Program-made: the position numbers and the translations under genes
The notes under the pieces: model-generated
What the model was told of the DNA's origin: nothing
The model's database searches: none
What the model saw: the letters and a program-made list of their open reading frames with translations, nothing else
NCBI GenBank assembly: GCA_040905865.1
Contig: JBBDQU010000037.1
Span: forward strand, 1 to 33,119
Length of the DNA stretch: 33,119 nt
Source of the DNA: Alphaproteobacteria bacterium
GTDB lineage: Bacteria; Pseudomonadota; Alphaproteobacteria; UBA8366; GCA-2717185
Direction: 5' to 3'
Part shown: one piece after another, positions 8,067-33,014 of the stretch
Layout: every line of letters begins with the position of its first letter
Position numbering within the stretch: position 1 is the first letter of the stretch

Positions 8067-9170
8067 ATGCAACAGCAGGAACTGAAACCCGTCACGGGAC
8101 CCCGGGTCTGGCGGGGCCCCGATATGGCGGCGCGCGAGGCGGAATGGACCTATCGCCTGTCGCCGGACGACATCGCGGAACTCGACCTCGCGGTCGAAAG
8201 GATCGTCGCGCGGGGCCTGGATGTCCTGGACATCACGCGGGAGAATTTTTCGCTGCCCGGTTTCAGCCGGACCATCCGGCGTATCGACGATGCCCTGCAC
8301 AAGGGCGTCGGTTTCGCCATGATCCGGGGTATTCCGGTCGACCGCTACGACCGGCGGCGGGCGGCCATCGCCTATTTCGGCATCGGCGCGCATCTGGGCG
8401 AGGCCGTGGCGCAGAACGCCAAGGGGCATGCGCTGGGCCATGTCTATGACCTGGGCTTCGACGCCAGCAAGCCGACCGGGCGCGGCTACCAGACCTCGGA
8501 GACGCTGAACTTCCATACCGACCCGGCGGATGTGGTCGGGCTGCTGTGCCTGCAGACCTCGAAATCCGGCGGCACGAGCGCCATTGTCAGCTCTGGCGCG
8601 GTCTACAACGCGATGCTGGCGGAACGGCCGGACCTGGTGCAGGTGCTGACCGAAACCATCTACCGCGACCGGCGCGGCGAAATCCCCGAAGGGCGCGATC
8701 CCTGGTACCGGCTGCCGGTGTTCAATTTCCGCGACGGCAATCTGACCACCAATTACGTGCGCAGCACCATCAACAAGGCGCAGCGGTTCGAGAACCTGCC
8801 GCGCCTGACGGAGGCGCAGCTGGAAGCCTTCGCATTGATCGAACGAATCGCGTCGGACCCGGCGCTGGTGCTGAATATCGAATTCACGCCCGGCGATATC
8901 CAGTTCCTCAGCGATCACTACATCATGCATTCGCGCACCGCCTATGTGGATTATCCGGAACCGGAGAGGCGGCGGCACCTGCTGCGGCTGTGGCTGGCCT
9001 GCGATTCGGCGCCGCCGCTCGCCGATCCGTATTACGAATTCATGGGCAGGACCGCATCGGGCCGTCCGGACGGCTATCTGATGCCCGGGGTCACGCTGAC
9101 CGCGCCGCTGTACCCCGAAGACGGCGGCCCCGGCGCCAGCACGCAACGGATCGCGGAAAAGGTGGGCTGA
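8067..9170 (+). CDS. TauD/TfdA-family Fe(II)/2-oxoglutarate dioxygenase
   Basis: A 367-residue non-haem iron dioxygenase. The facial triad is visible as H150-T-D152 in LNFHTDPAD and distal H288 in IMHSRTAY. A basic patch RRRHLLRLWL (301-310) should bind 2-oxoglutarate. The fold start GVGFAMIRGIPVD near 80-92 is typical of TauD proteins. These enzymes hydroxylate small molecules while turning 2-oxoglutarate into succinate; the substrate here is unknown. A strong GGAGGAGG site lies 10 bases before the ATG. A second TauD gene follows after 14 bases and a cupin-like gene after that, suggesting an operon for degradation of one compound. Confidence 0.9.
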   Translation: MQQQELKPVTGPRVWRGPDMAAREAEWTYRLSPDDIAELDLAVERIVARGLDVLDITRENFSLPGFSRTIRRIDDALHKGVGFAMIRGIPVDRYDRRRAAIAYFGIGAHLGEAVAQNAKGHALGHVYDLGFDASKPTGRGYQTSETLNFHTDPADVVGLLCLQTSKSGGTSAIVSSGAVYNAMLAERPDLVQVLTETIYRDRRGEIPEGRDPWYRLPVFNFRDGNLTTNYVRSTINKAQRFENLPRLTEAQLEAFALIERIASDPALVLNIEFTPGDIQFLSDHYIMHSRTAYVDYPEPERRRHLLRLWLACDSAPPLADPYYEFMGRTASGRPDGYLMPGVTLTAPLYPEDGGPGASTQRIAEKVG

Positions 9171-9184
9171 GGGAGCAAGGCGCC

Positions 9185-10057
9185 ATGCAGGCCGTATCCG
9201 ATATCGAGATCGTTCCCAGCGGCGCGGCGCTGGGCGCGGAAGTGCGCGGCGTCGACCTGTCGAAGCCGCTGGATGCGGATACCTTCGCGACCCTTGAAGC
9301 GGCGTTCAACGAACATTCGGTGCTGTATTTCCGCCGTCAGGACCTGCAGCCGGAACAACTGATCGAATACGCAAGGCGGTTCGGCGAGGTCCAGACGCTG
9401 CTGCTCAACCACTACGCCATGAAGGAGCACCCGGAAATCCTGTATGTGTCGAACATCCAGGAGGACGGGAAGGATATCGGCTACGCGGATGCGGGATCGG
9501 TCTGACACACGGACATGTCCTATGAGGACCACCCGCCGCGGGCGACGATGCTGCATGCGCGGGAAATTCCGGTCGCCGGGGACGGCACGGTGCTGGGCGA
9601 TACCCTGTTCGCCAGCGCGGTCAAGGCATATGATTCGCTGCCCGATGCGACGAAGGACAGGCTGAAGGGGCTGCGCGCCGTGCATGACGTCGCGGGCCGC
9701 CGCCGCAAGAAGGGCACCGCCAACCCCGAAGACCAGAAGCGGCACGAGGCATACCGGCTCAAACTTCATCCCGTGACCCGGACCCATCCCTGGACCGGCC
9801 GCAAGGCCATTTACGTCAACAAGGGGGAATGCGCCGCCATCGAGGGCATGGCGGACGCCGAGGCGCTGGCGCTGATCGAGGAACTGGCCGATACGGTGGT
9901 CCGCGATGAATTCATCTACCGCCACAAATGGGCTGTGGGCGATATCGTCATGTGGGATAATTGCGCTGTGCAGCATCTTGCCCTGAAGGACTACAAACTG
10001 CCGCTGCGCCGCATGATGTGGCGCATCACCGTCGGCTATACCGACGTTTACGAATAG
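9185..10057 (+). pseudogene. TauD-family dioxygenase with in-frame TGA at the W-H-T-D motif
   Basis: One reading frame runs from the ATG at 9185 to 10057 (290 codons), interrupted only by TGA at 9503-9505 (codon 107). The reading around it is D-A-G-S-V-stop-H-T-D-M-S-Y. In TauD relatives, including E. coli TauD, a Trp precedes the iron-binding H-T-D, so a single TGG to TGA change explains it. Everything else is intact: V-R-G-V-D-L-S at the start, the distal H-L-A-L-K-D-Y region and the late arginines in RRMMWRITVGYTD. A restart at the ATG at 9515 would lack H108 and D110 and could not bind iron normally. Other genes here use TGA as stop. The choices are recent inactivation, sequencing error, readthrough or, less likely, selenocysteine. 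Confidence 0.8.
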
Positions 10058-10077: not shown

Positions 10078-10845
10078 ATGCTGATTTCCACCGCCACCGA
10101 AACCGCCGAACGGCACAAGACCGCCTTCCTGGTGGACAACCAGCCCTATACGGGCCGCGAATATATCGGGGTTTCGGTCAAGCCGGGCATGCCGGGCTAC
10201 GGGGAAAACATCGCGGCGAAAAGCGGCGGCCGGGAGGCCGACCCGCAGGCCTATCTGGTCATCCAGCCGCCTCATTCGGTCACCCAGCCGCATTTCCACC
10301 AGACCAACCAGTTCCAGGTTGTCGTCGCCGGCGGCGGCACGATCGGCAAGCTGCGCACCGACCCGCTGACGGTGCAGTATGCGGGGGCGGATACGCCCTA
10401 TGGCCCGATCAACGCCGAAGCGGCCGGGCTCAGCTATTTCACCCTGCGCCAGCAATGGGATTCCGGCGCGAAATACCTGCCGGCGCAGCGCGAACTGCTG
10501 GTCCGGGGCAAGCAACGCCAGGTCGTCGGCGTGAAGGCGCATCGCGCCGCCCGCGACCTGCCAGCCGAATCCGGCGTGGTGCGGCTGGAAGCCATGATCG
10601 AGCCGGAAGCGGACGGGCTGTTCGTGCAGTTCCTGGCGCTGGGCCCGGACACGCAAACCGTATTGCCCGATTCGGGCGACGGCGGCGGCCAGTATCACCT
10701 GGTCGCCACCGGATCGCTGCTGCGGGATGGCAAGGTGTTGCCGCCGCTGTCGCTGGAATTCGCCACGCCCGATGAAGGCGCGGTCAGAATCGAATCCGGC
10801 CCCGAAGGGCTTGGCCTGCTGCTGCTGCGCTTCCCGAAACTCTGA
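10078..10845 (+). CDS. Cupin-fold protein of unknown function
   Basis: A 255-residue protein. The segment YLVIQPPHSVTQPHFHQTNQ, then F-Q-V-V-V-A-G-G-G, carries the H-x-H and following glycine-rich turn of a cupin metal site, so a double-stranded beta-helix enzyme or sensor is likely. I chose the ATG at 10078 (MLISTATETAERHK) because GGAG lies upstream and the earlier open frame overlaps the dioxygenase gene with unlikely sequence. It is the third gene in a row with the two dioxygenases, 20 bases after the interrupted one, and may act on the same compound. I do not recognise a specific family. Confidence 0.75.
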   Translation: MLISTATETAERHKTAFLVDNQPYTGREYIGVSVKPGMPGYGENIAAKSGGREADPQAYLVIQPPHSVTQPHFHQTNQFQVVVAGGGTIGKLRTDPLTVQYAGADTPYGPINAEAAGLSYFTLRQQWDSGAKYLPAQRELLVRGKQRQVVGVKAHRAARDLPAESGVVRLEAMIEPEADGLFVQFLALGPDTQTVLPDSGDGGGQYHLVATGSLLRDGKVLPPLSLEFATPDEGAVRIESGPEGLGLLLLRFPKL

Positions 10846-12062: not shown

Positions 12063-12074
12063 AAGGAGATGCCG

Positions 12075-13316
12075 GTGTCAGAGCCTTCCCTATCCGAGAC
12101 AGTCGCTTCCGTCCCTGAGCGTATATCGCCCGTCCAGGTATTCCTCGTCTTCCTGCGCCTGGGCTTCACGTCCTTCGGCGGCCCCATCGCGCATCTCGGC
12201 TATTTCCATGACGAGTTCGTCACGCGCCGCAAGTGGATCGAGCAGAGGGCCTATGCAGACCTGGTGGCGCTCTGTCAGTTCCTGCCCGGCCCGGCGTCGA
12301 GCCAGGTCGGCATTGGCATCGGCCTGTCGAAGGCAGGCCTTTTAGGGGCTCTTGCCGCGTGGTTCGCCTTCACCACGCCCTCGGCGCTGGCCCTGATGGC
12401 GTTCGGCTACGGCGTCGTCGCCTTCGAGGACGTTATCGGTTCCGGCGCGATCCACGGCCTCAAGGTCGTCGCCGTGGCCGTCGTCGCCCAGGCCGTTTGG
12501 GCAATGGCGCGCAACCTGTGCCCCGATGCCCAGCGGGTCACCATCGCGGTTCTTGCGGCCATCGGCGTCCTTGCCGCGCCGAACCCTTTCGCGCAGGTCG
12601 GGGTCATCGCCCTCGGCGGCATCGTGGGGCTGGCATTTCTGCGCGCTGATGCGCGGACCGATCACGTTTCGCTGGGCACGGAGGTCAATCGCGGCCTCGC
12701 CATTGCCGCGCTTGTGGTGTTCTTTGCGGCGTTGATCGCCTTGCCGCTGCTTGCCGCCGCCTATCCGTCGCAGACGCTGGCGCTCGTCGACAGCTTCTAT
12801 CGCTCGGGCTCCCTGGTGTTCGGCGGCGGGCATGTTGTCCTGCCCCTACTGCAAAGTGAAGTCGTCCCGCCGGGCTGGGTGTCGAACGACGCCTTCCTTG
12901 CCGGTTACGGCGCGGCCCAGGCAGTGCCCGGACCGCTTTTCACCTTCGCCGCCTACCTCGGCACCGTAATGAGCAGCCAGCCAAACGGCGCGATGGGCGC
13001 GCTCGTCTGTATTCTCGCGATCTTCGCGCCATCCTTCCTGCTGGTGATCGGCGCATTGCCGTTCTGGGATTGGCTGCGCCGCTTCGGGGCGATGCAGAAC
13101 GCCCTTCTCGGTATCAACGCCGCCGTCGTCGGCCTGCTGCTTGCCGCGCTCTACAATCCCGTCTGGACGAGCGGCATATTGTCGGCGACGGATTTCGCTC
13201 TTGCGATGGCGGCCTTCACGCTGCTGGTCTTCTGGAAAGTGCCGCCCTGGCTCGTCGTGATCCTGTCGGCTTTGGGAGGCTGGATCGCTACCCTCTTGCC
13301 ATTGCTGACCGCATAA
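12075..13316 (+). CDS. chrA: Chromate transporter ChrA (long, two-domain form)
   Basis: A 413-residue inner-membrane protein of the CHR family, which expels chromate. Two homologous halves are visible. The first carries LGFTSFGGPIAHLGYFHDEF and FLPGPASSQVGIGIG; the second carries LVFGGGHVVLPLLQSEVV and GAAQAVPGPLFTFAAYLG. Length and duplication fit the long-chain ChrA group. An ATG at 12069 is in frame, but AAGGAG ends at 12068 and leaves no spacing. The GTG at 12075 stands 6 bases after it, so I prefer GTG. A PadR regulator gene follows after 42 bases, and a repeat-rich operator precedes the gene. Some CHR homologues may carry sulfate or other anions. Confidence 0.92.
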   Translation: MSEPSLSETVASVPERISPVQVFLVFLRLGFTSFGGPIAHLGYFHDEFVTRRKWIEQRAYADLVALCQFLPGPASSQVGIGIGLSKAGLLGALAAWFAFTTPSALALMAFGYGVVAFEDVIGSGAIHGLKVVAVAVVAQAVWAMARNLCPDAQRVTIAVLAAIGVLAAPNPFAQVGVIALGGIVGLAFLRADARTDHVSLGTEVNRGLAIAALVVFFAALIALPLLAAAYPSQTLALVDSFYRSGSLVFGGGHVVLPLLQSEVVPPGWVSNDAFLAGYGAAQAVPGPLFTFAAYLGTVMSSQPNGAMGALVCILAIFAPSFLLVIGALPFWDWLRRFGAMQNALLGINAAVVGLLLAALYNPVWTSGILSATDFALAMAAFTLLVFWKVPPWLVVILSALGGWIATLLPLLTA

Positions 13317-14841: not shown

Positions 14842-15537
14842 CATCGGCTTCTTCCGGGCGGCGACAGCCGTATCGATGAAATCGAGTATCCAGGGGCCGA
14901 AATCGTCCGGCGCCGCGCCGGACAGGCTGGCGATGGCGGATGCCGCCACCGCTTCGCCGACAACATTGCGGCGCGCCCCGGCCAGCGCCCGCAGGAAGTC
15001 CGGCGTGAATTCGGGGTGCGGCTGCAGGGTGATCGTGAAATCACCGATCCGCATGCCCGCATAGCGGCAGAAATCCGTCGATGCGATGACCTCAGCCCCC
15101 GGCGGCAGCGCCGTTACCTGGTCCTGGTGCCAGGTCAGCAGGGACGCCGGCGCAGCGCGGCCGGGCATGTCGTAATATTCCAGCCCGCAGGACCAGCCGC
15201 CGGAAAACTTCTCCGCCCTGCCGCCCAGCGCCTCGGCGACCGCCTGGTGGCCGAAGCAGATACCGACCAGCGGCACCGCGTCCGCGTGCACCGCGCGCAG
15301 GAAGGATTTCAGCTTCGCGATCCAGGGGAAACCGTCATACACGCCGCAGCGTGAGCCGGTGACCACCCAGGCATCGGCATCGGATGGCCGCGCCGGGAAA
15401 TCGTCTTCCAGCACCACATAGGTTTCGAAGACGATATCGGGCCGGGCGAGCAGCCGCATGAACATCTCGTTGTAATCGCCATGCTCGCGGCGCAATTCGT
15501 CGGGCGAACGGCCCGTCTGCAGAATTCCGAGTTTCAT
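14833..15537 (-). CDS. Class I glutamine amidotransferase (GMP-synthase-like)
   Basis: A 234-residue cytoplasmic protein with a complete class I amidotransferase triad: Cys94 in V-G-I-C-F-G-H-Q, and His174 and Glu176 in L-Q-P-H-P-E-F. The fold starts at MKLGILQTG. The ATG at 15537 overlaps the stop of the upstream oxidase gene (ATGA), so the two are translationally coupled. Proteins of this kind in polyamine gene clusters are often annotated as GMP synthase-like. In this setting hydrolysis of a gamma-glutamyl amide, as PuuD does, is plausible. That function is inferred from neighbours only. Confidence 0.87.
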   Translation of the reverse strand: MKLGILQTGRSPDELRREHGDYNEMFMRLLARPDIVFETYVVLEDDFPARPSDADAWVVTGSRCGVYDGFPWIAKLKSFLRAVHADAVPLVGICFGHQAVAEALGGRAEKFSGGWSCGLEYYDMPGRAAPASLLTWHQDQVTALPPGAEVIASTDFCRYAGMRIGDFTITLQPHPEFTPDFLRALAGARRNVVGEAVAASAIASLSGAAPDDFGPWILDFIDTAVAARKKPMSA

Positions 15538-16838
15538 ATTCCCATCCTGTCGCGCAATGCATACCACCACGAACCGACCGTCGAATAGGGTGCGCGCAGC
15601 CTCTGCCCGCCCGGAAACGGCACCCAGGGCAGTTTAGCGAAGGTATCGAACCGCGCCATGTCGCCATCCACCGCCTCGGCGAGGATCGCGCCGAACAGAT
15701 GCGAGCCCGTGACCCCGTGGCCGCTGTAACCATGCGCGAAATAGATCCCGTCCTCCAGCCGGCCAAGCTGCGGCACGCGCGTGAAGGACAGCGCGAAATT
15801 GCCGCTCCAGGCGTAGTCGATTTTGACGCCCGCCAGCGACGGGAAGACCCTGTCCATATTGGGGCGGATCTTCGCCACGATATCCGCCGGGTCGGTGCCG
15901 CCGTAGACAACGCCGCCGCCGAAGATCATGCGTTTGTCGGCGGACAGGCGGAAATAGTCGAGGATATAGCGGTTGTCCTCGACGCATTTGTCGGTCGGCA
16001 GCAGCGCCGCCGCGCGCGCCGCGTCCAGCGGTTCGGTCGCGATCATCTGGGTCGATACCGGCATGACCCGCGCCGCCAGCGCCGGCACCACTCCGCCCAG
16101 ATACGCATTGCCGCAGACCAGCACCGTCCTTGCCGTCACCGTCCCGCCCGTCGCGCGGATCGCGATATCGTCGCCGCGCTTTTCGATCCCGGTCACGGGC
16201 GACAGTTCGAATATCCGCCCGCCCAGGGTTTCCAGCGCCCGCGCCTCCCCCAGCGCCAGGTTCAGCGGATGCATATGCGCGCCCGACACGTCCATCATGC
16301 CGCCGACATAGACGTCGCTGCCGACATGGCGGCGAATGCCTTCGCGGTCCAGCATTTCATGCTCGTCCATGCCGTGGCGGCGCCACAACGCCTGTCTGGC
16401 TTCCAGTTCGCGCATGTGCCGGGCGGTATAGGCGGCGTAGATATTGCCGGGCTTGAGATCGCATTCGATACCGTATTGTTCGACCAGCCGGTAGATGATC
16501 CGCGCGCCCGACTGCAGCAACCCGCCGACGAAGGTCTCGGCTTCCGCGCCGTAGCGCCGGCCGATGCTGTCCAGCCCGGCGTTCAGCCCGTTCACGACCT
16601 GCCCGCCATTGCGGCCGGACGCGCCCCAGCCGACCCGCGCGCCTTCAACGACCGTTACGCCGTAACCCTTTTCCGCCAGGTGGATCGCGGCGGACAGCCC
16701 CGAATAGCCCGCGCCGACAACGCAGATATCCGCCGTTTCGTCACCGGCAAGGGGTACCGGCGTGCGGACAATATTGGCTGAGGCGGCGTAATAGCTGTCG
16801 GGGTAGGACCCGTCACCCGCATAGGCGCGAATCATCAT
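15534..16838 (-). CDS. puuB: FAD-dependent oxidoreductase, PuuB-like
   Basis: A 434-residue DAO-type flavoprotein. The FAD site DICVVGAGYSGLSAAIHLAE lies at residues about 36-55, followed by VTVVEGARVGWGASGRNGGQ. The start, with S-Y-Y-A-A-S-A-N, and the late G-Y-S-G-H-G-V-T segment match gamma-glutamylputrescine oxidase and its relatives. PuuB oxidises gamma-glutamylputrescine to the aldehyde, giving hydrogen peroxide and ammonia. It overlaps the glutamine synthetase gene upstream and the amidotransferase gene downstream by 4 bases each, so the three form one tight operon. The exact amine substrate may be another polyamine or a secondary amine. Confidence 0.85.
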   Translation of the reverse strand: MMIRAYAGDGSYPDSYYAASANIVRTPVPLAGDETADICVVGAGYSGLSAAIHLAEKGYGVTVVEGARVGWGASGRNGGQVVNGLNAGLDSIGRRYGAEAETFVGGLLQSGARIIYRLVEQYGIECDLKPGNIYAAYTARHMRELEARQALWRRHGMDEHEMLDREGIRRHVGSDVYVGGMMDVSGAHMHPLNLALGEARALETLGGRIFELSPVTGIEKRGDDIAIRATGGTVTARTVLVCGNAYLGGVVPALAARVMPVSTQMIATEPLDAARAAALLPTDKCVEDNRYILDYFRLSADKRMIFGGGVVYGGTDPADIVAKIRPNMDRVFPSLAGVKIDYAWSGNFALSFTRVPQLGRLEDGIYFAHGYSGHGVTGSHLFGAILAEAVDGDMARFDTFAKLPWVPFPGGQRLRAPYSTVGSWWYALRDRMGI

Positions 16839-18211
16839 ACGATCTCGAGATAGGCGCCGAACTCCAGGTCGGTGACATTGGAAGCGAAGCCGGCGATTTC
16901 CTGGCGCTTGCAGGCGACGAACATCGATCGCAGCGACTCATCGAAAAACGCCGGGATGATCTCGCCATCCTCGAAGGCGTTCACCGCGGACGCCCAGTCG
17001 GCCGGCAGCTTCGGAAACCGTTCGGAATAGGCGCGCCCCTGGAACGGCACCGGCGGTACGAGTTTGTTCTCGATGCCATACAGCGCCGCCCCGAGGATCG
17101 CCGCGATGACCAGATACGGATTCGCATCCGCGCCCGCGACGCGATGTTCGATTCGGCGCGATGCGTTGCCGCCGCCGGGGATGCGGATCGCCGTGGTCCT
17201 GTTCTCGTAACCCCAAGATACGGATGTCGGCGCATGGGTATCCGGGCGCAGGCGGCGATAGGAATTGAAATGCGGCGCGAAGGCGAGGGTCGATTCCGCC
17301 ATGCCGGCCAGCATTCCGGCGACCGCGCACGCGAAGACCGGCGAGCCCTCGGCGGTTCCGTTGTCGAAAACATTTTTGTCGCTCTCGTCGAGCAGGCTGA
17401 AATGCACGTGGAACCCGTTGCCGGATCGGGTGCCATAGGGCTTGGCCATGAAGGTCGCCGCGAACTGGTGTTTCCGCGCGACACCCTTGATCAGCCGCTT
17501 GAACAGCACCGCATCGTCGGCCGCTTTCAGCGGGTCGTCGGAATGGCGCATGTTGATTTCGAACTGGCCGACGCCGTTTTCCGCGACCGCCGCATCGGCG
17601 GGGATGTTCTGCTTCGCGCATTCCGCATAGACATCCCAGAAGAACTCGCCGAAATCGTCCAGCTCGTCGATGGACAGGATCGCATCGGAATCGAGCCGCT
17701 TGCCCGTATAGGGCGAAATCGGCGGCACGGCGCTGTCCGCTTCGGGATCGACGAGGTAGAATTCCAGTTCGGTCGCAACGACCGGGCGCAGCCCGAGTTC
17801 CCGGTAACGCTCGAGGATCCGGGCCAGCGACTGGCGCGGATCGGCAAGAAACGGCTTCGCCCCTTCCTCGAACATCCACAGGGGAATCAGCGCGCTGGGC
17901 CGCGACGTCCAGTTGACCGGAACCACCCCCCGTCCGGTCGGTATGCAGTATCCGTCCGAGTCGCCGCTTGCGAAAACCTGGCGGTTCCCGACAATATCCT
18001 CGCCCCAGATATCGACCCCGACAATCGACAGGGGCATCCGGATACTGCCGTCCAGGACCTTCTGCACCTCCGGCACGGGAATCCGCTTGCCGCGAAGGAT
18101 ACCGTTAAGATCGCAGATCGCCACCTGAAGGCTCGCGATTTCCGCATGCTCGGCGAGCCAGGAAACAACGTCCTCGGGCGGGCCGGCAACAACGTCTGAA
18201 TCAGGACACAT
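16835..18211 (-). CDS. puuA: Glutamine synthetase family protein, PuuA-like
   Basis: A 458-residue enzyme of the glutamine synthetase fold. Visible segments are the N-terminal VAICDLNGILRGKRIP, E-L-E-F-Y-L in the metal site, GVGQFEINMRHSDD, the glutamate-binding GNGFHVHFSL, PTSVSWGYENRTTAIRIP and RRIEHRVAGADANPYL. The pattern fits gamma-glutamylpolyamine synthetases (PuuA) rather than nitrogen-assimilating GlnA, whose N-terminal swap and adenylylation region are absent. It would ligate glutamate to putrescine or a similar amine with ATP. I chose the ATG at 18211 (MCPDSDVV); the 18 residues upstream look non-coding. It is the first gene of the coupled three-gene operon. Confidence 0.87.
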   Translation of the reverse strand: MCPDSDVVAGPPEDVVSWLAEHAEIASLQVAICDLNGILRGKRIPVPEVQKVLDGSIRMPLSIVGVDIWGEDIVGNRQVFASGDSDGYCIPTGRGVVPVNWTSRPSALIPLWMFEEGAKPFLADPRQSLARILERYRELGLRPVVATELEFYLVDPEADSAVPPISPYTGKRLDSDAILSIDELDDFGEFFWDVYAECAKQNIPADAAVAENGVGQFEINMRHSDDPLKAADDAVLFKRLIKGVARKHQFAATFMAKPYGTRSGNGFHVHFSLLDESDKNVFDNGTAEGSPVFACAVAGMLAGMAESTLAFAPHFNSYRRLRPDTHAPTSVSWGYENRTTAIRIPGGGNASRRIEHRVAGADANPYLVIAAILGAALYGIENKLVPPVPFQGRAYSERFPKLPADWASAVNAFEDGEIIPAFFDESLRSMFVACKRQEIAGFASNVTDLEFGAYLEIV

Positions 18212-18341
18212 GACGCAACCCCGCGGAAACAGAGCAACAGGTCCGGCATGGCGCCGTAATCTCAAACACCTGGAGACTCCTGCAGGAAAGGACTGGCCGC
18301 AACACCGTACAGCGTGAATATTCCCGCAATATTAACAGATA

Positions 18342-18373
18342 CCGTAAGGGAAACCTATCCGTTCCCCTTACGG
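18342..18373 (-). terminator. Hairpin after the ornithine decarboxylase-type gene
   Basis: CCGTAAGGG at 18342-18350 and CCCTTACGG at 18365-18373 form a 9-bp stem with a 14-base loop. Two more A-T pairs are possible if one base bulges. It lies 30 bases after the decarboxylase stop codon. The following sequence on this strand is only moderately T-rich (TATCTGTTAATATT), so termination is plausible but not certain. Confidence 0.5.
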
Positions 18374-18402
18374 CATGTCGGCGGGAATTTTCGGATGCCG
18401 GC

Positions 18403-19674
18403 CTAGATGCAGACGGACTGCAGCGGCGCGAATCCGTTGAAATTGACGGCGGAATACGTGGTCGTATAGGCGCCTGTCGACAGGATCTGTATCCTGTCGC
18501 CGATTTTCAGGTCGAGCGGCAGTTCATACGATACCTTCTCGTACAGGATATCCGCCGAATCGCAGGTCGGCCCCGCCAGGATGACCGGGCCGGTTGCGCC
18601 GCCGTCATGCGGCGTTACGAACCGGTATTTGATCGACTCGTCCATCGTTTCCGCGAGCCCCGAGAACTTGCCGATGTCGAGATAGATCCAGCGCTTGTCG
18701 TCATCGTCCGACTTGCGCGAGATCAGCACCACCTCGGCCTGGATGACGCCGGCATCGCCGACAATCGAACGGCCCGGCTCGAAAATCATTTCCGGCAGGG
18801 CGGGGCCGAAATGGCGCGTCATGGCGCCCATGATCGCCGCCGCATACTCGTTGAGCGGGCGGACATCGGCCCGGTAGCGCGCGGGCATGCCGCCGCCCAG
18901 ATTGACCATCCGCAGGGTGACGCCAAGCCGGGCGGCATCCTCGAACAGCCGCGACACCCGCGACAATGCGATATCCCACTGGCCGAGATCGGTCTGCTGC
19001 GAACCGACGTGAAAGGACACGCCATACGGATCGAGGCCAAGCGCCTGCGCCTTGATCAGCAGCCGCAGCGCCATGTCCGGCTCGCAGCCGAACTTGCGCG
19101 ACAACGGCCATTCCGCGCCTTCGCATTCCATCAGCACGCGGCAGTAAACCATCGCGCCGGGCGCCGATTCGGCCAGCTTTTCCAGCTCCGCGTCGCTGTC
19201 GAAGGCGAACATGCGCACGCCACGGGCATAGGCGTATTCGATATCCCGCTGCTTCTTGATCGTGTTGCCGTAGGAAATCCGGGAGGGCGCCACGTCATGG
19301 CGCAGGCACAGGTCGATTTCCGCCGGGCTTGCCGTATCGAAACAGGCGCCCAGCGCGGCCAGCCGCGCAATCACGGCGTCCGCCGGATTCGCCTTCACCG
19401 CATAAAAAATCCGGCCGACCGGAAGCGCGCGCGACATGGTGATGAAGCTGTTCTCCACCACGTCGGTGTCGATTACCACGCAGGGACCGTCGAAGTCGTG
19501 GGTCGCCAGATATTCCGCAATTCGCGGCGGCATGTCGCCCTGCCGTTCCGGCAGACGCAGGCCCTGCGCCGGTTCGGCGACAAGTGAAATCGCCGGCTTC
19601 AGCGGCGCTTCTGTCTGATATCGTCGTGAAGTCTTGCGCAGGCGTGCACGCACGCCCGAATTGGTTGCCAACAT
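18403..19674 (-). CDS. Ornithine/lysine decarboxylase-type PLP enzyme (fold III)
   Basis: A 423-residue member of the Orn/DAP/Arg decarboxylase family 2. The PLP lysine is K94 in R-I-F-Y-A-V-K-A-N-P. The phosphate-binding glycine loop is L-G-G-G-M-P-A-R-Y, with E-P-G-R-S-I-V-G-D-A-G after it. The active-site cysteine lies in G-P-T-C-D-S-A-D-I-L (C371). That last motif is typical of eukaryote-like ornithine decarboxylases. I chose the ATG at 19674 because GGAAGGGG stands upstream. A second in-frame ATG at 19533 would give 376 residues, closer to the usual family length, and is a real alternative. It would make putrescine next to a putrescine-glutamylation operon. Confidence 0.88.
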   Translation of the reverse strand: MLATNSGVRARLRKTSRRYQTEAPLKPAISLVAEPAQGLRLPERQGDMPPRIAEYLATHDFDGPCVVIDTDVVENSFITMSRALPVGRIFYAVKANPADAVIARLAALGACFDTASPAEIDLCLRHDVAPSRISYGNTIKKQRDIEYAYARGVRMFAFDSDAELEKLAESAPGAMVYCRVLMECEGAEWPLSRKFGCEPDMALRLLIKAQALGLDPYGVSFHVGSQQTDLGQWDIALSRVSRLFEDAARLGVTLRMVNLGGGMPARYRADVRPLNEYAAAIMGAMTRHFGPALPEMIFEPGRSIVGDAGVIQAEVVLISRKSDDDDKRWIYLDIGKFSGLAETMDESIKYRFVTPHDGGATGPVILAGPTCDSADILYEKVSYELPLDLKIGDRIQILSTGAYTTTYSAVNFNGFAPLQSVCI

Positions 19675-19958
19675 CGTCACACCCCTTCCAGTCCGGGCAA
19701 GGCCCGGTGAGACCAAAAAGGACGCGTCCGTCGTTGCATAAACCACGAAGGGCCAGCGGCACGTGCGTTTGCGTCTAGAAGTCGTCAATTAGGGGATAAA
19801 AGTTTTCAATTCAATAACGAAATCGGCTGTGACAAAAAATAATTCCCGCCTGTTGCCGGAAAGCGCGCCCCTACGCCTTTTTTAAGCGTCTGCCGGTTTC
19901 GCTTCGCATCGACCCTGACCGACGTTATGCTTCCGCGTAACGAAAACCGGAGGGCCGT

Positions 19959-21400: not shown

Positions 21401-21931
21401 ATGGCAGAAGAATTGTTCATGCGGGACCCGACGAGCGAGGCGTCCTCGACGCTGCGCACGCCGGTGCCGTTTCCCGCCGATATAACAGGCAAGACCATCG
21501 CGCTGCTGGACATCGCGAAGGAACGCAGCGACGAATTCCTCGATACGCTGGAAACCCGGTTCGTGTCGCAGGGCTTCACCGTGAAGCGCTACCGCAAGGC
21601 GAGCAATTCCAAGAACGCCGCGCAGGATATCGTGCAGGCCATCGTCAGCGAAGCCGACATCGTCGTCGAAGGGCTCGCGGATTGAGGCTCGTGTACGTCG
21701 TGCAGTCTGCATGACATCAACACGCTCGACAAACTCGGCATTCCCGGCGTTATCGTCGCCACCACGGAGTTCATGCCCGCGGCGGCGTCACAGGCGAAGT
21801 CGCTCGGCTTCGAACCGGCGATCAAATGGGTCCCGCACCCGATCCAGAACCGCACGAAGGACGAGCTGGCGGCCATCGCCGACGCCGTGTACGAACCGAT
21901 CCTGGAGACGCTGCGCGGTACGGTGAGATAG
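21401..21931 (+). CDS. UGSC family selenoprotein (Sec at TGA 21683-21685)
   Basis: The frame from ATG 21401 reaches TGA at 21683-21685 (codon 95), then stays open to TAG at 21929-21931, giving 176 residues. Around the TGA the protein reads V-V-E-G-L-A-D-U-G-S-C-T-S-C-S-L-H-D. The U-G-S-C motif names a known family of selenoproteins (Cys in some members), and the TGA falls exactly on the U. A hairpin starting 11 bases after the TGA fits a bacterial SECIS. The part after the TGA is clearly coding (LGIPGVIVATTEFMPAAA, LGFEPAIKWVPHPI). AAGGAG stands 9 bases before the start, and the thioredoxin-like gene ends 2 bases upstream. The U95-x-x-C98-x-x-C101 centre suggests a redox enzyme; substrate unknown. 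Simple gene calling would stop at residue 94. Confidence 0.88.
21697..21715 (+). promoter_or_regulatory. Candidate bacterial SECIS element
   Basis: The 19-base RNA folds as GUCGUGC and GCAUGAC (seven pairs, one G-U) around AGUCU, in which A and U can pair to leave a GUC tip. It begins 11 bases after the UGA. The E. coli fdhF SECIS has its upper stem-loop at the same distance with the tip UGCAGGUCUGCA; here it is UGCAGUCUGCA. It lies inside the coding region, as bacterial SECIS elements do, and would bind SelB. Confidence 0.82.
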
Positions 21932-30603: not shown

Positions 30604-30694
30604 CTTACGTAATGTGGAACCGGGATAGCTCGCGTTCGACCAAAAAAGTCTCCCCGGAGTTTCGATAACCGGGAGAAAAAAAGGGAGTTTGTCC

Positions 30695-31663
30695 ATGTCA
30701 CTGAAGCACCTGATCGGCCTGACCGCGGCGACCGTCGCGATGGCCACGACACTGAATGTTGCCCAGGCCGCGTGGCCTGAAAAACCCATTACCATTTACT
30801 GTCCGTATTCCGCCGGTGGCGGCACGGACGCCACCGCCCGCTTTTTCGCCACCGGACTGCGGGACGTGCTGGGGGTTCCGGTCAATGTCGTGAACCGTAC
30901 TGGCGCCAATGGGTTGACGGGTCATTCGGCGATGGCCAGTTCGGACCCCGACGGCTATACGATCGGCCTGATCGCGCAGGCGATCGGCCTGTATCACTGG
31001 CAGGGCATGGATCTGAGCTACAAGGACATCACACCGCTGGCGATGTTCAATTTCGATCCGGCCGGTTTCCAGGTCGGGCCGAGCAAGGCGCATCTCAAGG
31101 ACGCCATGCAGGCAATCGAGGAACTGAAGGCGAATCCGCAGGACTGGAACCTGGGCGGCGGCGGCCGCATGGGCAGCTGGGGCATGGCCTTCACCCAGCT
31201 CGCGCTGGCATTCGATATGGACCCATCCATCTACAGCTGGATCGCATCGGGCGGCGCGGCGCCGTCGCTGACGGAACTCGCGGCGGGCGGCATCGATCTG
31301 GCGCCGACCTCGCTGCCGGAAGCCAAGACCCTGATCGACGCGGGCAAGATCCGCGCCCTCGCCGTCATGGCCGAAAAGCGTCACCCCACCTTCCCCGACG
31401 TTCCGACGATGGAGGAAGTCACCGGCAAAAAAATCGTGGCGGGCGCCTGGCGCGCCATCGCCGCCCCGAAGGGCCTGCCGGACGACATCAAGGAAAAATA
31501 CATCGTGGCGCTTCGGAAAGTCTGGGAATCTGACGAATTCAAGGAAGGTATGGACAAGTTCGGCTACGGCATGGCGTGGATAGAAGGCGCCGAACTGGAT
31601 GAGTTTCTCGCCGCCAATGACGCCAACGCAGGCAAGATCCTGAAAGCGACACAAGGCAAGTAG
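30695..31663 (+). CDS. Tripartite tricarboxylate transporter substrate-binding protein (Bug/TctC), copy 1
   Basis: A 322-residue periplasmic binding protein. A signal peptide (LKHLIGLTAATVAMATTLNV, cleavage after A-Q-A) leads into WPEKPITIYCPYSAGGGTD, the TctC/Bug family signature. Other family blocks are V-N-V-V-N-R-T-G-A-N-G, the specificity loop around P-A-G-F-Q-V-G, and LAVMAEKRHPTFPDVPTMEE. Such proteins capture carboxylates or other small acids for TctAB-type permeases, none of which is in the window. A-A-G-G-G-A-G stands 7 bases before the ATG; a TTG two codons earlier would overlap that spacing. Its middle is identical to copy 2. A strong terminator follows. Confidence 0.92.
   Translation: MSLKHLIGLTAATVAMATTLNVAQAAWPEKPITIYCPYSAGGGTDATARFFATGLRDVLGVPVNVVNRTGANGLTGHSAMASSDPDGYTIGLIAQAIGLYHWQGMDLSYKDITPLAMFNFDPAGFQVGPSKAHLKDAMQAIEELKANPQDWNLGGGGRMGSWGMAFTQLALAFDMDPSIYSWIASGGAAPSLTELAAGGIDLAPTSLPEAKTLIDAGKIRALAVMAEKRHPTFPDVPTMEEVTGKKIVAGAWRAIAAPKGLPDDIKEKYIVALRKVWESDEFKEGMDKFGYGMAWIEGAELDEFLAANDANAGKILKATQGK
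30940..31574 (+). repeat. 635-bp block identical to 32288-32922
   Basis: Comparing both copies line by line, I find no difference from 30940 to 31574 against 32288 to 32922 (constant offset 1348), including all synonymous positions. Outside the block the two genes differ at many sites in the signal peptide, the segment near ATGLRDVL and the C-terminus. Confidence 0.85.
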
Positions 31664-31949: not shown

Positions 31950-32042
31950 TTTTCCATTTATAGAACCAACCAAAACGACCGGTAAGACAATCGCGTCGAT
32001 CCGGGAAAACTCGACAACTGGAAGCAATCAAGGAGCTAGTGA

Positions 32043-33014
32043 ATGTTTTTGAAGCACTTAATGGGATTGGGCGCGACGGCCGTCATGTTGGCCACATCGC
32101 TAAATGCCGCCCAGGCCGCATGGCCAGAAAAGCCCATCACCATCTATTGTCCGTATTCCGCCGGTGGCGGCACGGACGCCACCGCCCGCTTTTTCGCTTC
32201 CGGATTGCGCGAAGTACTTGGGGTTCCGGTCAATGTCGTGAACCGCACCGGCGCCAATGGGTTGACGGGTCATTCGGCGATGGCCAATTCGGACCCCGAC
32301 GGCTATACGATCGGCCTGATCGCGCAGGCGATCGGCCTGTATCACTGGCAGGGCATGGATCTGAGCTACAAGGACATCACACCGCTGGCGATGTTCAATT
32401 TCGATCCGGCCGGTTTCCAGGTCGGGCCGAGCAAGGCGCATCTCAAGGACGCCATGCAGGCAATCGAGGAACTGAAGGCGAATCCGCAGGACTGGAACCT
32501 GGGCGGCGGCGGCCGCATGGGCAGCTGGGGCATGGCCTTCACCCAGCTCGCGCTGGCATTCGATATGGACCCATCCATCTACAGCTGGATCGCATCGGGC
32601 GGCGCGGCGCCGTCGCTGACGGAACTCGCGGCGGGCGGCATCGATCTGGCGCCGACCTCGCTGCCGGAAGCCAAGACCCTGATCGACGCGGGCAAGATCC
32701 GCGCCCTCGCCGTCATGGCCGAAAAGCGTCACCCCACCTTCCCCGACGTTCCGACGATGGAGGAAGTCACCGGCAAAAAAATCGTGGCGGGCGCCTGGCG
32801 CGCCATCGCCGCCCCGAAGGGCCTGCCGGACGACATCAAGGAAAAATACATCGTGGCGCTTCGGAAAGTCTGGGAATCTGACGAATTCAAGGAAGGTATG
32901 GACAAGTTCGGCTACGGCATGGACTGGAAACAGGGCGCCGAACTGGATGAGTTTCTCGCCGCCAACGACGTCAACGCCGGCAGGATACTGAAAGCCACCG
33001 AAGGCAAGAAGTAA
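32043..33014 (+). CDS. Tripartite tricarboxylate transporter substrate-binding protein (Bug/TctC), copy 2
   Basis: A 323-residue paralogue of the gene at 30695. Its signal peptide (LKHLMGLGATAVMLATSLNA, cleavage after A-Q-A) and last 35 residues differ from copy 1, but residues from about 82 to 293 are identical. AAGGAG stands 7 bases before the ATG. Because the binding pocket is almost unchanged, both proteins should bind the same ligand; regulation is more likely to differ. No TctA or TctB permease gene is seen before the window ends. Confidence 0.92.
   Translation: MFLKHLMGLGATAVMLATSLNAAQAAWPEKPITIYCPYSAGGGTDATARFFASGLREVLGVPVNVVNRTGANGLTGHSAMANSDPDGYTIGLIAQAIGLYHWQGMDLSYKDITPLAMFNFDPAGFQVGPSKAHLKDAMQAIEELKANPQDWNLGGGGRMGSWGMAFTQLALAFDMDPSIYSWIASGGAAPSLTELAAGGIDLAPTSLPEAKTLIDAGKIRALAVMAEKRHPTFPDVPTMEEVTGKKIVAGAWRAIAAPKGLPDDIKEKYIVALRKVWESDEFKEGMDKFGYGMDWKQGAELDEFLAANDVNAGRILKATEGKK
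32288..32922 (+). repeat. 635-bp block identical to 30940-31574
   Basis: This is the second member of the identical pair. Its borders fall inside the coding sequence, at the codon for Asn versus Ser on the left and Asp versus Ala on the right. Such sharp borders suggest a conversion tract. Confidence 0.85.

Follow-up and report, generated by a model that had tools for sequence, protein, structure and literature searches.

The window, a stretch of 33,119 nt of alphaproteobacterial DNA, carries a TauD/TfdA-family dioxygenase gene with one in-frame TGA. This TGA is most probably an ordinary and very recent nonsense change, a loss-of-function change in one member of a large family (rough probability 0.7). 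The stop itself, the TGG codon at the same position in close relatives, the otherwise open frame and the use of UGA as a stop in this organism are observed directly.

The interrupted dioxygenase frame

The features of the interrupted gene are as follows.

9185..10057, + strand: frame of a TauD/TfdA-family Fe(II)/2-oxoglutarate dioxygenase with one in-frame TGA inside, PF02668 matching both halves
9503..9505, + strand: codon 107, the in-frame TGA that stands in place of the Trp in the W-H-T-D iron motif
9506..9514, + strand: codons CAC, ACG and GAC of His108-Thr-Asp110, the H-x-D iron ligands, directly 3' of the TGA
9515..9517, + strand: ATG of Met111, the first after the TGA; a restart there would omit His108 and Asp110
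9974..9976, + strand: codon of the likely distal iron-ligand His264; in solved TauD proteins, the distal His lines up with this His of the orthologue

The frame runs from an ATG start to a TAG end, with 290 codons ahead of the terminal stop when the internal TGA is counted in, and reading the whole frame revealed no second internal stop or frame break. An earlier note, made from the letters alone, had placed the TGA one codon before the iron-binding His with 183 sense codons after it, and both the reading of the frame and the profile matches on its two halves bear this out. The Pfam TauD profile (PF02668; cut-off 27 bits) scores 50 bits before the TGA, over profile positions 3-95, and 156.6 bits after it, over positions 100-267. 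The profile thus spans both halves, indicating a single gene split at one codon, and the match over the whole domain places the frame in PF02668.

When the orthologue from genome G003 (83% identical) was used as the phmmer query, 3pvj, a taurine dioxygenase, was the best solved relative (E 1.4e-46). The WHTD of this orthologue aligns with the WHTD of 3pvj, and the orthologue aligns at the W-H-T-D site and the distal His with solved members of the family such as 3pvj and 6d1o. From family knowledge and this alignment to solved TauD, we take His108, Asp110 and His264 to be the iron-binding residues. The window gene differs from the family in having a UGA stop for the Trp codon; it also differs from the taurine dioxygenase model NF007104 of NCBIfam, on which the frame scores 196.6 bits, well below the cut-off of 313. 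The codons of the H-x-D...H triad are all present, and the TGA precedes His108, so that a conventional product would lack the triad. The location of the stop is not beyond chance, since the frame of the G001 orthologue offers 17 single transitions that would create a stop, 5 of them to TGA.

Codon 107 in relatives and paralogues

The earlier note had proposed comparing the codon with close relatives, and the close-orthologue comparison, made on two genomes, gives TGG at codon 107 in both: G001, where the orthologue is 91% identical and belongs to MAG casp40-mb.248, and G003, where it is 83% identical. Among 23 aligned family members, codon 107 is TGG in 21, TAT in one and TGA only in the window's own gene; the own genome contributes 8 of its 52 matches to this set, and the other 15 members are not among these 52.

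The disabling change is missing from all orthologues found. At E <= 1e-110, the 59 genomes searched (own plus 58 relatives) give 10 matches in 7 genomes, own included, and an internal stop occurs in the window's match only. At E <= 1e-95, the 43 genomes searched (own plus 42 of the order) give 15 matches in 12 genomes, own included, again with an internal stop in the window's match only; none of the other 14 (13 in relatives and one own paralogue) has one. Relatives with a TGA and a conserved hairpin, which according to the earlier note would overturn the pseudogene reading, are thus not seen among these matches. The third congener (64% complete) shows no match at E <= 1e-95. A search of genome contigs gave 3 relatives among 12 candidate stretches, one of them the G001 orthologue.

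The own genome, a 4.37-Mb draft, contains 52 matches to the TauD-family protein at E <= 1e-3, at least two of which are partial, and 51 of the 52 have no internal stop, the exception being the window's. The expansion of the TauD family is striking in itself, with first-look candidate counts of up to 113 in the genomes of one family (f1) and up to 94 in those of another (f2).

Selection on the interrupted gene and its neighbours

The two neighbours of the interrupted gene are intact.

8067..9170, + strand: upstream TauD-domain gene, gene order shared with G001 and G003
10078..10845, + strand: downstream gene with no Pfam or NCBIfam match, gene order shared with G001 and G003

Changes were assigned to branches with G003 as the outgroup; a codon entered the count if the outgroup agreed with one of the pair, the stop codon was excluded, and the counts are purely descriptive. 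For the interrupted gene, the window branch carries 12 silent changes and 3 replacing ones, and the G001 branch 16 silent and 6 replacing. On the window branch, the upstream neighbour counts 17 silent changes and 3 replacing ones and the downstream neighbour 16 silent and 11 replacing, the latter gene having 11 silent and 4 replacing on the G001 branch. The dN/dS values against G001 are 0.17 for the interrupted gene, 0.11 for the upstream neighbour and 0.25 for the downstream neighbour. On these small counts, the interrupted gene shows no visible relaxed selection, and the downstream gene if anything has more replacing changes. Most of the window-branch changes in the interrupted gene are silent, so its decay has hardly begun. 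This is compatible with a stop that is very young, with a base error or with expression that has continued.

A probable recent nonsense change and its rivals

TGG in the relatives, two halves that are otherwise intact and the lack of visible relaxed selection fit either a change of very recent date or a base error. The interpretation in the earlier note, which offered recent inactivation, error and readthrough, is supported, and we rank a recent nonsense allele as most likely and a base error next. If the nonsense change is real, the Trp codon ahead of the iron-binding His would have become UGA and RF2 would terminate there; the normal product would be a 106-residue fragment with no iron ligand, and a restart at Met111 would keep the distal His only. 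Judging from the chemistry of the family, neither product would form the usual iron site. We infer that the living population really carries this base and that the gene yields no useful protein. The interrupted gene is probably dispensable, since about 50 paralogues exist.

Single-nonsense bacterial pseudogenes are a known kind, and redundant genes commonly acquire such changes; draft assemblies, too, contain base errors. The window gene resembles recent pseudogenes of this kind in its one stop, in a frame that is otherwise intact and conserved and in the intact copies of relatives, and, assembly error aside, no difference from them is seen. The interrupted dioxygenase therefore matters little in itself.

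The second explanation, to which we give a minor share of the probability, is an intact gene whose TGA entered the draft consensus through an error of sequencing or assembly or through the inclusion of a variant from a minority strain. The own genome is a draft of 85 contigs, the remaining frame is open with a dN/dS lying between those of the two neighbours, and an error fits the sequence as well as a real nonsense change does. However, the window frames beside the gene have no break between start and stop, and their matches in G001 and G003 are single pieces, most of which come close to full length. The assembly around the interrupted gene does not look error-rich, as judged from whole frames and not from single bases elsewhere.

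UGA as a stop codon and possible leaky readthrough

UGA acts as a stop in this organism. Six of the 11 listed window genes end in TGA, and the RF2 gene (prfB) is present; it looks to be split between contigs C49 and C73, and each piece by itself stays below the family cut-off. On the first of these (L054, G000:C49:1-705), a short upstream frame of the RF2 gene ends in CTT TGA, which is presumably the usual autoregulatory RF2 frameshift site. A reading of prfB as another interrupted gene was dismissed: the matched stretch begins with the TGA counted in it, in keeping with the frameshift arrangement. The pattern search for tRNA-Trp gave no gene with a first pattern and one with a looser pattern, and a tRNA-Trp fitting neither would escape it; the gene found has the anticodon CCA and an ordinary 5-bp anticodon stem. 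A tRNA-Trp with a 4-bp stem is the form linked with UGA decoding in one report (PMC13092985).

A further explanation is leaky readthrough, in which the near-cognate tRNA-Trp would read the UGA at a low rate and yield a little normal Trp107 enzyme, leaving the gene weakly active. Since 21 of the 22 aligned homologues have Trp at codon 107, the misread product would be the normal enzyme, and the frame is otherwise intact and without relaxed selection, as for a gene that is still expressed. A study of E. coli describes TGA as the leakiest stop, mostly read as Trp, with reporters leaking more at 18 degrees C (PMC11126739). The sequence itself, however, gives no indication of such readthrough, which could occur wherever a UGA takes the place of a Trp codon; in addition, RF2 with its frameshift site is present, the sole tRNA-Trp found is ordinary and no aligned relative has a TGA, so there is no sign of a kept regulatory stop. 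We therefore regard leaky readthrough as improbable. It is likewise doubtful, and hardly to be expected, that the fresh UGA is tolerated through low-level, temperature-dependent misreading by the native tRNA-Trp, which would make the allele a low-dose enzyme and not a dead gene.

The selenocysteine reading and a nearby selenoprotein gene

A selenoprotein gene in the same window serves as a positive control for the reading of the dioxygenase TGA as selenocysteine (Sec).

21419..21931, + strand: UGSC-family selenoprotein gene with its Sec UGA at 21683-21685; coordinates from the start of the Pfam match, the true start not being fixed
9517..9529, + strand: weak hairpin GTCC-TATGA-GGAC, starting 11 bases after the dioxygenase TGA, no bSECIS by published rules

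The earlier note was right about a Sec UGA 12 kb away: the TGA at 21683 lies in the UGSC-family gene, which scores 126.1 bits on PF24696 (cut-off 25) and 120.4 bits on NF041046, just under the cut-off of 125. At E <= 1e-30, this gene gives 38 matches in 22 of 59 genomes (own included), and all 38 have exactly one TGA; three of them are in the own genome, namely the window gene and two copies on contigs C85 and C8. The 22 UGSC sites in 20 opened loci all read UGSCTSCSLHD; of the 16 remaining match rows, for which no separate locus was opened, two lie in L060 and L061 and are counted in the 22. Both of the latter loci (genomes G031 and G022) hold paired adjacent UGSC selenoprotein genes, with match starts 556 bases apart and a UGA in each.

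A hairpin with G first in its loop lies 19 nt after the UGA at 22 of 22 UGSC sites, a count that leaves out the second L069 site as an off-target pattern match. The energies of the unbroken stems range from -6.4 to -9.1 kcal/mol, and 3 of the 22 (-6.4) miss a limit of -7.5 on this narrow measure; the 48-nt folds reach -12.3 or lower at all 22. The Sec machinery of the own genome is complete (selA, selB, selC and selD): selA (563 bits), selB (461 bits) and selD (300 bits) are all over their cut-offs, as is the tRNA-Sec (68 bits, anticodon TCA). A second match over the tRNA-Sec cut-off, on contig C54, is tRNA-Ser(tga) by ARAGORN and a plain tRNA by Rfam, and was rejected.

The bSECIS model as given in PMC13188914 has a stem of 4-16 bp, a loop of 3-9 nt with G in its first two positions, a distance of 16-37 nt from the UGA and an MFE <= -7.5 kcal/mol. 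We scored unbroken stems only, with the energy of the stem-loop alone. The UGSC control agrees with the model (loop GTC, spacing 19, -9.1), and the dioxygenase TGA does not. The hairpin that the earlier note described, GTCC/GGAC beginning 11 bases after the TGA, does exist; adding a fifth pair, T-A, leaves ATG as its loop and gives it an energy of -4.1 kcal/mol, and neither form of the loop (ATG or TATGA) has a G at the first two places. The doubt already expressed about this hairpin as a SECIS was justified, as it breaks the loop-G rule that the nearby true Sec site obeys, and scoring by the published rules, also proposed there, fails it on both loop and energy. One of its pairs is lost in G001, and the hairpin is absent in G003. 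Hairpins that do have a loop G downstream of the dioxygenase TGA reach -3.7 kcal/mol at best. Folds of the whole stretch after the TGA give -10.5 (45 nt) and -17 (60 nt), within the energy limit, with the loop still lacking the G.

Fold z values against shuffles are 0.20 (60 nt) and -0.09 (45 nt) for the dioxygenase versus -0.86 and -1.35 for the Sec control, a poorly discriminating test. As a background, 67 of 93 TGG, TGC or TGT codons in eight window genes have a downstream loop-G hairpin of at least 4 pairs, and 11 of these 67 chance hairpins lie at <= -7.5 kcal/mol. Because loop-G hairpins are this frequent by chance, the decision on Sec rests mainly on conservation and not on the hairpin alone. 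At gathering scores, Rfam gave no match anywhere in the window, the UGSC site included, and thus carries no weight against a bSECIS; ARAGORN on the window returned nothing.

Pairs of Sec and Cys underlie one main route to detecting Sec genes, as outlined in PMC13188914. At the dioxygenase codon, the 22 homologues have 21 TGG and one TAT, that is Trp or Tyr, never Cys or UGA. With bacterial selenoproteins that have a bSECIS (UGSC, NF041046/PF24696), the dioxygenase shares an in-frame UGA and a host cell that possesses the Sec machinery, and such a selenoprotein gene is 12 kb away; unlike them, its UGA is unconserved, its homologues have Trp and not Cys, and no hairpin meets the rules. On the homologue codons and the loop-G rule, we rejected selenocysteine at 9503, and a Sec-containing dioxygenase is largely refuted, with a probability close to nil. 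The 33-kb window therefore offers a clean contrast between a true Sec UGA and an apparently accidental one, and Sec machinery alone does not turn an in-frame UGA into a Sec codon.

Organism-wide reassignment of UGA to Trp, which the TGA in place of the relatives' Trp codon might suggest, is refuted, with a probability close to nil: window genes terminate at TGA, RF2 is present, the tRNA-Trp found has a CCA anticodon and a 5-bp stem, 51 of 52 family matches are free of internal stops, and UGA serves for Sec too. A code variant would show no UGA termination, an altered tRNA-Trp or a missing RF2.

Gene order and other features of the window

Gene order is shared with both close relatives: 7 of the 18 window frames match the G001 contig (10.6 kb) and 10 of 18 match the G003 region (19.9 kb), collinear and with relative orientation kept. 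A search of a plasmid collection gave one short match of 9% coverage. The chromate transporter gene at 12069-13316 (+ strand) matches neither the G001 contig nor the G003 region, whereas its neighbours do, and it is a possible insertion in the own genome. Genes for an FAD oxidoreductase (DAO), a glutamine synthetase-like protein and a PLP decarboxylase occupy 15534-19788 (- strand), and their order is kept in G003. A direct repeat (30684-30983 and 32032-32331) has 86% identical copies with a spacing of 1348; the first copy falls at the beginning of a gene for TctC (tripartite tricarboxylate receptor), and the second is probably the start of a paralogue near the contig end.
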